IMG/VR virus record: IMGVR_UViG_3300020442_000501
Coordinates: 1-21,596 of that record
Length of the DNA stretch: 21,596 nt
Origin: a virus
Strand: one strand, 5' to 3'
A program made the position numbers and the translations under genes. The notes beneath the pieces were generated by a model. It saw only the letters and a list, made by a program, of their open reading frames with translations, was not told the DNA's origin and did no database searches. Every line of letters begins with the position of its first letter. Within the stretch, counting starts at the first letter, position 1. This document shows, piece by piece, positions 502 to 3,906 of the stretch.

Positions 502-1593
502 TCAGGCAGATGCCTCCCCGTCAACAGGCATCTGGAAATCTGCATCAACCTTATCATACAGTTCCATGAATGCCTGCTTGGTCTCATCGTCAAAGCGATT
601 CACACAAACTTGAATTGCCTTTGCCTTATCACCAAAGATGCTGTAGGCACGGATGATGTGAACCAGGCGGCGGGTAGAGATAATCTCTTCGATACCACCG
701 TCATAGAAAGTCTTACGAATGATATCACCCCAGTCAACCAATCGCTTGCAGAACTCACGATCCTTTACACCAAGATCCAGAGCAATACCCTCAAGAATCT
801 TTTGTTCGGTTGCAGGAGTAGGATAAGACTGCTCAAAGGTTACAGGGAAGCGTTCCAGGAATGCTTCATTGAGAACGTTAGTTCCAATAAAGCGACCGTC
901 ATCGCTGCCTTTGCCTTTAGTGTTTGCAGTTGCAATAACATTGAATCCTTCCTTCAGTTGAATGTATTTACCAATCTTCTTCAGGAAGACTCCTTTTCCT
1001 TCCAGGATTGATTGAAGGCAAAGAATCTTGTTGGAGGCCAGGTCAATCTCGTCAAGCAGTAGAATCGCACCGCGCTCCAGGGCTTCGATGACCGGACCAT
1101 TGTGCCAAACGGTCTCACCATTGACCAAGCGGAATCCGCCAATAAGGTCATCTTCATCGGTCTCAATCGTCAGGTTGACTCGGATGAGTTCTCGGTTGAG
1201 TTGGGCACACGCTTGCTCAACACTGAAAGTTTTGCCGTTGCCAGAAAGACCCGTAATGAACGTCGGATAGAAGATACGCGACTGGATAATTTTTTTGATA
1301 TCGCTATAATTACCAAACTTGACGAAGGTATCATCTTTTTCTGGGATAAGGTTTTGCTCAAAGGCAGGCATTGCTGCTGGTGCCTCATAGGTACGCTCAA
1401 TCTGTTCAACCTTTTGAGGAGTTACTTCCAGGTTCCACTTACCGCGACCGACTTTGAATTGGTCAAGTTTTTTAGAAACGGTTTGGTAAGTAGTTCCGTT
1501 CATAGCGCACCATGCTTTCAGTTCTGCGCTGGTAACCGTAGAACCGTAGAGGTTGCGGAGCGAAGAAGTGATGTATTCAGCGGAGATTGCCAT
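502..1593 (-). CDS. cobS: CobS-like AAA+ ATPase (MoxR type)
   Basis: A 363-residue AAA+ ATPase. Residues 1-75 form an N-terminal region rich in helices that may bind DNA or a partner. The ATPase core follows: Walker A GLSGNGKT at 115-122, Walker B ILLLDEID at 177-184, sensor-1 ATAN at 221-224, and a likely arginine finger in FLERF near 248. Cellular CobS is the ATPase subunit of aerobic cobaltochelatase and works with CobT and CobN. Cyanophage homologues are routinely named cobS, but no CobN is present here. The adjacent VWA protein could be the partner, in the manner of MoxR/VWA remodelling pairs (inference). Upstream lies a 61-base gap with a TATAAT box and three tandem repeats, so it may have its own promoter. 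A true vitamin B12 role is only assumed. Confidence 0.88.
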   Translation of the reverse strand: MAISAEYITSSLRNLYGSTVTSAELKAWCAMNGTTYQTVSKKLDQFKVGRGKWNLEVTPQKVEQIERTYEAPAAMPAFEQNLIPEKDDTFVKFGNYSDIKKIIQSRIFYPTFITGLSGNGKTFSVEQACAQLNRELIRVNLTIETDEDDLIGGFRLVNGETVWHNGPVIEALERGAILLLDEIDLASNKILCLQSILEGKGVFLKKIGKYIQLKEGFNVIATANTKGKGSDDGRFIGTNVLNEAFLERFPVTFEQSYPTPATEQKILEGIALDLGVKDREFCKRLVDWGDIIRKTFYDGGIEEIISTRRLVHIIRAYSIFGDKAKAIQVCVNRFDDETKQAFMELYDKVDADFQMPVDGEASA

Positions 1594-1615
1594 TGGTTTG
1601 TTTGTTGATGTCCTT

Positions 1616-1621
1616 ATTATA
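1616..1621 (-). promoter_or_regulatory. TATAAT -10 box upstream of cobS
   Basis: On the minus strand the gap before cobS reads ACTCTGCCC followed directly by TATAAT, then AAGGACATC. The hexamer is a perfect sigma70 -10 box, 23 bases upstream of the cobS ATG. The expected -35 position (about 1639-1644) falls inside tandem repeats and reads CCGACT, which is not a -35 consensus. If it is a promoter it would need an activator bound to the repeats. Confidence 0.45.
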
Positions 1622-1652
1622 GGGCAGAGTGGGGGCAGAGTCGGGGCAGAGT
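1622..1652. repeat. Three GGGCAGAGT direct repeats, 11-bp period
   Basis: The plus strand carries GGGCAGAGT at 1622-1630, 1633-1641 and 1644-1652, an exact period of 11 bases, about one helical turn. On the minus strand these are ACTCTGCCC units. They fill most of the gap between the stop of the 50-residue gene (1655-1657) and the TATAAT box at 1616-1621, which the last unit abuts. The geometry resembles an operator for a protein binding one face of the helix. Confidence 0.85.
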
Positions 1653-1654
1653 GG

Positions 1655-1807
1655 TCAGTCCTTGGACTGGTCGTACTTGTACTTCATTGCCTGGAGGAAC
1701 CAGGCATCAGTCAGAGACTTGGGACCATTCTTCAAAATGTCTATTTGTTTTTGTTTTAGTTTCGGATTTTGTAAAGCCCTTTTCTTCCATTCAGGTAATT
1801 CGATCAT
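1655..1807 (-). CDS. Small hypothetical protein (50 aa) between the VWA gene and cobS
   Basis: A 50-residue lysine-rich protein beginning MIELPEWKKRALQNP and ending KYKYDQSKD. Its ATG (1807-1805) overlaps the TGA of the upstream VWA gene (1806-1804) as ATGA, a classic translational-coupling junction. It has no strong ribosome site of its own (GGAG lies about 20 bases away), which fits coupling. The amphipathic, Trp- and Lys-containing sequence looks like coding DNA rather than chance. I know no family. Lying between an AAA+ gene and a VWA gene, it could be an accessory subunit or adaptor of that pair (inference). Confidence 0.72.
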   Translation of the reverse strand: MIELPEWKKRALQNPKLKQKQIDILKNGPKSLTDAWFLQAMKYKYDQSKD

Positions 1808-3906
1808 ACTACTAGTGAAATAAATTCTCCAAGGATACGCTTATTCAGTTTTTTAGTCTTGAGGGATTTTACAAAGGCAGATTTGATTTTTGCTTTGGTA
1901 GCACCTTCATCAACATCAAAGTCAGATTCCTGGTTCAGTGCTGTAGCAGACATACCAAAGTAAGCATCATAACCAGAGTTCTTGATAGTGAAACTCTTTT
2001 CTTTACGCCATTGACTTTGAAGTTTCTCTGCCTCAGAATAGTTTTCATGATACATCTTGATGAAAGAGTTAGCATCGCGAGGAGCAAGAACACGAATACC
2101 AATCAGGTTCATATCAGTGAAGTTATCTTTGAGATTCTGCAGAAGCAGATCAGTAAATTCATGATAACAATACTTGACTTGATAGGTACAACCAATCTTA
2201 CGGTCGCGAACAAAAGTGCGATCAGCAATCAGTCTTCTACAACCAATATATTCCTCACCTTTGTATCCTGTAACTGTAGCATGGCGATTGAGGAAACCTG
2301 CCTCACCATCAGTCAAAACTACACACTGAACTTTCTGTAGTTTGTTCTCACTCTGGAACTTAGGCAGAATCTGATGAAGAGTAACGATTGCTTCATTCAA
2401 AGGTGTGCCTGAGAGAGACACACGATTACCTGGGTCATAAGAATAACAACCACGGCAACCGAAGTAATAAGCAATACGATAGATGTTCTTCATCTGATGC
2501 TCAAGAACCTTACCATTTACTTTGCTGGTAAGAATGTTCATCATACAGAAGTTCTCCTCAACAACAAGTTGTCCGTCTTCTGCTTCATAGTGAGAAGGCA
2601 AAGGTGCCCAACCACCATTAGGGAGGACTTCATGTTTGATCCACTCATTAGTGAAAGCATATACCTCAAAGGGAATATTAACTTTCTTACAGAACCAAAC
2701 CAGATTGAAAAGTTGCTTCAAAGTATCCTCAAGGACATTCGCCATAGAACCAGACCAGTCAAGAACAAATACTAGACCGTGGTTCTTACCATCAGCAAGG
2801 GTAGTAACCTTTCGGAAAAGGTCATCATTATACTTATAAGTATGTAGTTTGCTGCAGTCAAGAACACCAGTACGCGATACAGAAGCACGGGCATAAGAGT
2901 CTGCTGCTTTCTTACATTCAAACTCTTTTACCAGATAGTTGACTTCTTTTTGAGCAGACCGTTTGAACTCAGTGAACAAAGAGTCAGGAGTTCGGAAAGG
3001 ATCTTCATCTCTAGTATTCCAGTTAGTGTCAATATAATCATGAATGTCTTGGTTCTTACCAATAACAGTATCAAGATTTACCTTAGGAAGTTCAACATAA
3101 ACATTCTCGCCACCGTGGTTGGAAATCAATTCACGCAGACTCTCATCCAGACTATCAACAGTCTTGACTTCAGGTTCAGCAGAAGCACCTGCATTGTTAG
3201 AAGTATCACCAGAATCTAACTGTTCAGAGGATTCAGATTCACCCTGTTTAGATTCTGTTTCTTGACTATCATCAACTTCTCCATCTTCTTTATTTTCTTT
3301 ACTCTCATTACTACCACCAGACTGCGATTCAGAAGAAGCAGCAGGAATATCAGGTTTCTCTTGTTCTTTTGATTTCTTATCATAGCGATACATCTCTTCT
3401 GCCGCAAGACAAGCATCAGCAAAAGTTTCAGCATCAGCAATCATCTTAATGATACGACTCTCATCAAAGTTGAAGAAAGGAATATCAACGTAGTTGCCAA
3501 TCTTGAAGTAAAGGTTAGCACGGTCAGCAAGACTCATCTTTCCGATGTCTTCACCCTCAAGGCAAAAGAAATCCTCATCAGACAGTTCAGAATAACCCTT
3601 GAAGAAAGTCTTACTCAAACCAGGATATTTACGTTTCATTAGTTTCTCAATCCTTGCATCTTCAGTCACATTGATGAAGGAGTGAGGAATATTTTTAGGG
3701 GGGTCTTGATCAGGAGTAAAAAGTGCGTGTCCTACTTCGTGACCTACCAGCATGTCATAGACAACATTGCTTGCCCGTTCCCAGCGAGGCAGAGTCAGCA
3801 CACGGGTCTGGACGTTGAACTGTGCCGTCTCAACGAACCGGTGCTCAACCACCAGGTCCTCAGTAGCAAGGAGTTTGGCGAGTTGTGACTTGACTTCGTG
3901 CTTCAT
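1804..3906 (-). CDS. CobT-like protein: HExxH metallopeptidase-like region plus VWA domain
   Basis: A 700-residue protein. Residues 1-90 include HEVGH at 56-60 and NVTEDARIE at 79-87, the His-Glu-x-x-His plus downstream Glu arrangement of a zinc peptidase, also reminiscent of CobT-type proteins. Residues about 178-250 form a low-complexity Ser/Glu/Asp/Lys linker, like the acidic linker of CobT. A C-terminal VWA domain starts near 378 with MIDAS motif DWSGS at 383-387, a SGTPL Thr site at 499-503 and LTDGE at 531-535. VWA proteins commonly act with MoxR/CobS-class AAA+ ATPases, and such an ATPase lies downstream, so the two probably work together (inference). The start is supported by AAAGGAAACC just before the ATG. 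Cyanophage annotations call relatives peptidase or cobalt chelatase; whether the zinc site is active is unknown. Confidence 0.85.
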   Translation of the reverse strand: MKHEVKSQLAKLLATEDLVVEHRFVETAQFNVQTRVLTLPRWERASNVVYDMLVGHEVGHALFTPDQDPPKNIPHSFINVTEDARIEKLMKRKYPGLSKTFFKGYSELSDEDFFCLEGEDIGKMSLADRANLYFKIGNYVDIPFFNFDESRIIKMIADAETFADACLAAEEMYRYDKKSKEQEKPDIPAASSESQSGGSNESKENKEDGEVDDSQETESKQGESESSEQLDSGDTSNNAGASAEPEVKTVDSLDESLRELISNHGGENVYVELPKVNLDTVIGKNQDIHDYIDTNWNTRDEDPFRTPDSLFTEFKRSAQKEVNYLVKEFECKKAADSYARASVSRTGVLDCSKLHTYKYNDDLFRKVTTLADGKNHGLVFVLDWSGSMANVLEDTLKQLFNLVWFCKKVNIPFEVYAFTNEWIKHEVLPNGGWAPLPSHYEAEDGQLVVEENFCMMNILTSKVNGKVLEHQMKNIYRIAYYFGCRGCYSYDPGNRVSLSGTPLNEAIVTLHQILPKFQSENKLQKVQCVVLTDGEAGFLNRHATVTGYKGEEYIGCRRLIADRTFVRDRKIGCTYQVKYCYHEFTDLLLQNLKDNFTDMNLIGIRVLAPRDANSFIKMYHENYSEAEKLQSQWRKEKSFTIKNSGYDAYFGMSATALNQESDFDVDEGATKAKIKSAFVKSLKTKKLNKRILGEFISLVV

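Follow-up and report, generated by a model that had tools for sequence, protein, structure and literature searches.

The cobS promoter of the window (the whole 21,596-nucleotide stretch that was analysed, from IMG/VR virus record IMGVR_UViG_3300020442_000501, itself a fragment of only 21.6 kb) is probably a member of a class specific to the lineage of T4-like cyanophages, and is likely switched by a dimeric regulator that recognises a palindrome. Read from the sequences compared here, the class shows one layout: a 22-base palindrome is followed by TATAAT at a distance of 30-31 bases, within which the -35 region falls. The comparisons also show that the 30-base slot is interchangeable, holding a terminator-like hairpin, a single CACTGCCC or three CTCTGCCC units. 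The window itself derives from a T4-like cyanophage, as it encodes CobS (phrog_249), a peptidase family of cyanophages (phrog_459) and a late sigma factor (phrog_234). The features of the region are as follows.

502 to 1593, minus strand: cobS, encoding a MoxR/CobS-like AAA+ ATPase of 363 aa (phrog_249, E 1.7e-138).
1591 to 1611, minus strand: predicted leader of ~16 nt, ACATCAACAAACAAACCA, before the ATG at 1591-1593, placed from the -10 geometry.
1616 to 1621, minus strand: -10 box TATAAT of the cobS promoter, a perfect match that is kept in nearly all cobS relatives.
1622 to 1630, minus strand: repeat unit ACTCTGCCC, the closest to the -10 and touching it.
1633 to 1641, minus strand: middle repeat unit ACTCTGCCC, 11 bases upstream.
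1639 to 1644, minus strand: -35-like CCGACT, a weak form matching TTGACA at 3/6 positions, with a spacer of 17 bases.
1644 to 1652, minus strand: distal repeat unit ACTCTGCCC, lying 22 bases upstream of the unit that touches the -10.
1652 to 1673, minus strand: 22-base palindrome CGACCAGTCCAAGGACTGACCA, a degenerate copy of GTGNCASTT-N4-AASTGNCAC, in register.
1656 to 1669, minus strand: palindrome core CAGTCCAAGGACTG, with two core mismatches.
1655 to 1807, minus strand: upstream ORF of 50 aa (phrog_869, E 6.5e-22), with its stop codon TGA at 1655-1657.

The preliminary description had drawn attention to the repeats, and its account of their arrangement was confirmed. Three exact copies of GGGCAGAGT lie on the plus strand at 1622-1630, 1633-1641 and 1644-1652 with a spacing of exactly 11 bases, the unit at 1622-1630 touches the perfect TATAAT (1616-1621, minus strand), and 61 bases separate the start of cobS (1593, minus strand) from the end of the upstream ORF (1655). 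In this gap the cobS strand carries CTCTGCCC-CGA-CTCTGCCC-CCA-CTCTGCCC-TATAAT, and the minus-strand text of the array region is GACCAGTCCAAGGACTGACCACTCTGCCCCGACTCTGCCCCCACTCTGCCCTATAATAAGGACATCAACAAACAAACCAATG. The array is indeed GC-rich within an AT-rich phage (71% G+C against 40% for the window), but the gap is not almost wholly made of repeats as had been stated, since the array and its linkers account for 31 of the 61 bases. The array is beyond chance: with up to one mismatch allowed, GGGCAGAGT occurs nine times in the window against 2.7 expected, a count that none of 100 shuffles reached, and no equally spaced triple of identical 9-mers was found in 100 Markov shuffles of the window. 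Against the sigma-70 criteria the promoter has the -10 TATAAT and lacks a TTGACA at 16-18 bases. The statement that there is no -35 was too strong, as the weak CCGACT is present at 1639-1644 (a consensus promoter scan of the window did not list it) and the class shows (T/C)GACT in the middle unit. From the position of the -10, transcription would start near 1609.

What is conserved across the class is not the repeats but the palindrome 30 bases from the -10, which the preliminary description overlooked. This palindrome was first seen before the same -10 context in S-SSM7, P-SSM2 and other isolates. In the window it lies exactly 30 bases from the -10, the promoter class having 30-31, and the outermost base of the distal unit doubles as the final base of its 22-base frame. 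Its core places the window in the class, with two mismatches to CASTTNNNNAASTGNC; the full consensus differs at 7/16 defined positions, and the window is a weak member on this criterion because the outer GTG/CAC arms are not preserved. Since the palindrome shares positions with the final codons and the stop of the 50-aa ORF, the operator and the coding sequence constrain each other.

When up to two mismatches were allowed, 12 palindromes were counted in each of S-SSM7 and P-SSM2, nine in S-PM2, three in S-CAM4 and two in each of Syn9 and S-SZBM1, whereas Markov controls gave 0-0.4; T4 has none at this threshold. Further phages gave six (P-TIM40 and P-HM2), four (Bellamy), three (S-SCSM1), one (S-CAM3) and 21 (S-CRM01), and those of P-TIM40 cluster at 50-55 kb. 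S-CRM01 (HQ615693, L521), a freshwater T4-like cyanophage, thus has the most at up to two mismatches among the phages tested, and it also carries the CAGTC..GACTG form that is found in the window. The palindrome is absent from P-SSP7, Syn5, PSS2 and S-TIM5, which belong to other lineages with similar hosts, and from Ma-LMM01. By motif counts, it is therefore shown to be enriched in T4-like cyanophages and absent from the controls tested. The distance from palindrome to TATA[ACT]T in the cyanophage sites is 30 bases in 31 cases, 31 in six and 32 in two, with one or two sites at each of the other distances. Core mismatches number three or fewer in 75/79 promoters with three units, compared with 8/339 upstream control positions. 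Doron et al. 2016 reportedly described a novel element, conserved across the T4-like cyanophages, through which early genes are controlled in Syn9 and P-TIM40. The palindrome found here occurs in both of those phages and may be the same element. For CTCTGCCC, and for early promoter motifs already in print, the literature searched gave nothing usable, the work of Doron et al. 2016 being outside the comparison, and the novelty of our findings is provisionally confined to the repeat or hairpin slot.

The array is not the isolated oddity that it had seemed. Two units at 11-base spacing were found in 65 IMG/VR stretches, most of them followed directly by TATAAT or TATACT and a gene start; L018, L038, L047, L049, L052 and L057 are apparently unrelated members of this set. 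A less biased search key, a single unit plus the -10, returned 113 dereplicated promoters (clustered at more than 8/60 bases apart), of which 79 have three phased units, eight have two and 26 have one. The triple array touching TATA[AC]T thus accounts for 79/113 promoters and stands upstream of many phage protein families. Among those with a single unit, 17/26 are without the palindrome (at least five core mismatches) and are probably chance matches. As the 8-mer of the -10-proximal unit served as the search key, the conservation of that unit is not independent evidence. The middle units are nearly invariant in the three-unit arrays though up to two mismatches were allowed. The genes that follow the arrays fall into 19 protein clusters and include cobS (36 promoters), the neighbouring peptidase and many small proteins of unknown function, and several copies can occur on one contig upstream of different genes. 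Families phrog_1987 and phrog_500 have repeat promoters in uncultured phages and palindrome promoters without an array in S-SSM7.

Exact 11-base phasing, noted earlier for the window, is found in a minority. Counted from the -10, the spacings of the 79 arrays are 10+12 in 46, 11+11 in 15 (the type of the window), 11+12 in 14 and 10+11 in four, so that the outer units stay about 22 bases apart while the middle unit slides. The linkers differ within the array, as the one before the middle unit ends in G in 61/73 arrays and the one before the last unit in 7/73 (Fisher p = 1.5e-20, a value that overstates independence because the array rows are related, although the contrast lies within the same arrays). 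A G at the end of the middle-unit linker yields a -35-like (C/T)TGACT with a spacer of 16-17 bases, which is usual in the class, whereas the window has only CCGACT. In Syn9 a variant array precedes a helicase gene (49062-49137, L082); its three units are of a TTGCCC type with 10+12 spacing and all depart from CTCTGCCC alike, as if changed together.

The cobS promoters were also collected by protein homology, without motif bias, which gave 70 distinct promoters whose CobS proteins are 80-93% identical to that of the window. The slot holds a hairpin and a T run in 45 of these, CTCTGCCC repeats in seven (the window included) and other sequence in 18; within the last group, several slots likewise form strong hairpins, and L292 holds an array in degenerate form. 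The half-site A[CG]TGNC is present at 37-40 bases before the -10 in 58/70, and the spacing is kept even in some slots that hold neither hairpin nor repeats. At L317:1193-1214 and in 44 other cobS promoters, a terminator-like hairpin separates the palindrome from the -10 while the total length stays constant. Folding energies of example hairpin slots range from -12.5 to -18.2 kcal/mol, and z ranges from -1.2 to -4.6 against shuffles, a spread which implies that the fold is convincing in some slots and perhaps driven by composition in others, and one slot scored as terminator-like in a terminator scan. The array slot does not fold, its transcript from the cobS strand being C-rich and unstructured (MFE 0). 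No -35 was seen in the hairpin-type examples that were read, and the one that was scanned has no recognisable sigma-70 -35. In compact phage genomes terminators and promoters stand side by side between genes; unlike such adjacent arrangements, the hairpin of this class sits between the presumed activator site and the -10, has a constant total length and is exchangeable for the repeat array.

Among isolates, the cobS slot holds a hairpin in P-SSM2, S-PM2, Syn9 and Bellamy, an array in S-CAM3, S-CAM4 and S-SZBM1, and neither of them clearly in S-SCSM1. When slot types were placed on a CobS tree of 95 rows, at least eight changes fell on starred branches and 15 were counted over the whole tree; the row set is array-enriched, and the tree is a quick one in which some long branches meet. 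The alignment of close relatives that had been proposed gave a divided answer: the nearest relatives L048 and L289 have arrays, while L287 and L288 (93% CobS identity) are without clean repeats. The suggestion of a regulated promoter is supported. The units stay constant while the linkers vary, and the module is seen upstream of many phage genes, but the array itself is optional.

We suggest that the palindrome would be bound, at about -64 to -43, by a dimeric regulator whose source is more likely the phage lineage than the host, and that the bound dimer would help host RNA polymerase to act where the -35 is weak or absent. Where repeats fill the slot, these units (about -44 to -13) may add Pho-box-like protein contacts on one face of the DNA, with the middle unit providing a -35 of the TGAC type; where a hairpin fills it, the slot may block read-through from the upstream gene. 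A broader proposal is made tentatively, and we regard it as possible rather than probable: that these promoters form a phage regulon with a lineage-specific dimeric activator, and that their 30-base slot is a swappable cassette carrying a built-in terminator in some promoters and, in others, a triple CTCTGCCC operator at which a second factor acts. If this is true, swapping the module would let evolution flip a gene between insulated and doubly controlled modes. The interchangeable slot shows how a terminator or an extra operator can be gained or lost with the basic promoter geometry unchanged. The fixed distance from palindrome to box offers a precise and searchable definition of co-controlled genes, and the palindrome promoter class could serve as bait for the missing regulator. 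In a 2010 review, early and middle control in T4-like cyanophages was still considered unclear because homologues of alt, modA, motA and asi are missing (PMC2984593).

As to where such a regulator would come from, genomes of the family of Candidatus Synechococcus spongiarum, which we take to be the family of marine Synechococcus and Prochlorococcus, were used as the host sample (151 or 300 genomes per search). With up to one mismatch the palindrome occurs nine times in 151 of these genomes, fewer than a reversed control pattern, and with TATAAT at 30 bases it does not occur in the 151. The full promoter pattern was found in 1/300 genomes of the family. As the motif is missing from the host family, the idea of a marine-host regulator that runs its own regulon loses support, and we regard it as unsupported across these 151-300 genomes. 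The distribution instead points to a factor that goes with the lineage of T4-like cyanophages. From the motif counts, this factor could be an early product, a component of the virion, or a host protein that has few sites in the host genome. No DNA-binding domain was detected in ten conserved ORFs of the early cluster of S-SSM7. The cyanobacterial ribbon-helix-helix repressor TrcR was considered and rejected, as its site is unlike the palindrome (PMC10272220).

It is unlikely, in our judgement, that the palindrome, the array or both are repressor operators that turn the promoter off later in infection. The array does span the expected site of sigma region 4, and the promoters precede small unknown genes of a kind often expressed early; however, the palindrome is positioned at about -64 to -43, farther upstream than the -35 region and at a fixed distance, which is a typical place for an activator, and the lack of a sigma-70 -35 in the scanned hairpin-type promoter argues for a need of activation. 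We also consider it rather improbable that the array is the main operator, Pho-box-like, through which a host response regulator of the OmpR/PhoB type activates cobS according to host state. The geometry is identical to that of cyanobacterial Pho boxes bound by PhoB/SphR, namely three direct repeats of 8 bases in tandem, separated by 3-base linkers (PMC1906773), and the binding of host PhoB to promoters of the T4-like cyanophage S-PM2d in vitro gives a precedent for recruitment of a regulator by this phage family (PMC10976474). The Pho box unit, however, is CTTAACCT with a TTAA core, mutation of which reduces or abolishes PhoB binding (PMC11126600), and as this core is missing from all three CTCTGCCC units, a Pho box by sequence was ruled out. 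Furthermore, the search of host genomes that had been recommended recovered the double repeat in 1/300 genomes of the host family, and the array is missing from most cobS promoters. Unlike a Pho box, the array is joined to a separate upstream palindrome, and most arrays of the class are spaced 10+12 and not 11+11. The putative Pho box of S-PM2d250 (PMC10976474) was traced to a TATACT at 22067 of S-PM2, which is not at cobS.

That the repeats are passive filler, made by slippage and serving to keep the 30-base distance, would agree with the occupation of the same slot by other sequences, but is very unlikely. Upstream of 19 protein clusters the middle and distal units hardly vary, and the same array comes back despite the repeated changes of slot type over the CobS tree. 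Slippage was rejected because it would copy the linkers too, whereas these vary while the units are constant. Finally, we find it scarcely plausible that the repeats serve as iterons for replication or act as a signal at the RNA level in a read-through mRNA. Tandem direct repeats and a C-rich, unstructured transcript would fit such roles; the repeats, however, touch the -10 and the gene start, and occur in several copies per contig before different genes. To our knowledge Cyanobacteria lack Rho, and a rut-like role of the repeats is therefore unlikely.

The known promoter types of T4 were compared with the palindrome-dependent promoter proposed here. Middle promoters that depend on T4 MotA combine a -10 and a poor -35 with an upstream site for a phage activator, and the window promoter is like them in having a -10 with a poor -35. 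The MotA box of such promoters lies near -30; by reading, there is no MotA-box-like TGCTT in the slot, and a middle promoter of this type was ruled out on that basis; cyanomyoviruses are also without motA or asiA homologues (PMC2984593). A late promoter of the T4 type was likewise ruled out by reading, its consensus being TATAAATA at the -10 with no -35 (PMC2984593) and the window having TATAATAA.

A similar palindrome, GTGTCAGTT-N4-AACTGTCAC, was observed in filamentous cyanobacteria at 26 loci (L162:3357-3640, L170, L171, L196 and L238 among them), 32 bases before TATTCT or TATCCT, so that a cyanobacterial ancestor of the regulator is possible. Downstream of it lies a conserved RNA-like element that begins TGCAAGGAGTGATACCACTTCAC and ends in a terminator-like hairpin. 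This element had no Rfam match in the six loci scanned, and it may represent a small RNA, so far unlisted, that a related operator controls.

In the window, cobS adjoins a gene for a 700-aa protein that is annotated as a peptidase and has a metalloprotease-like HEVGH motif (502-3906 for the pair). In L031, L046, L475 and L510 it is the peptidase family that is preceded by the repeat promoter instead, and the products of this pair may work together rather than in cobalamin synthesis.
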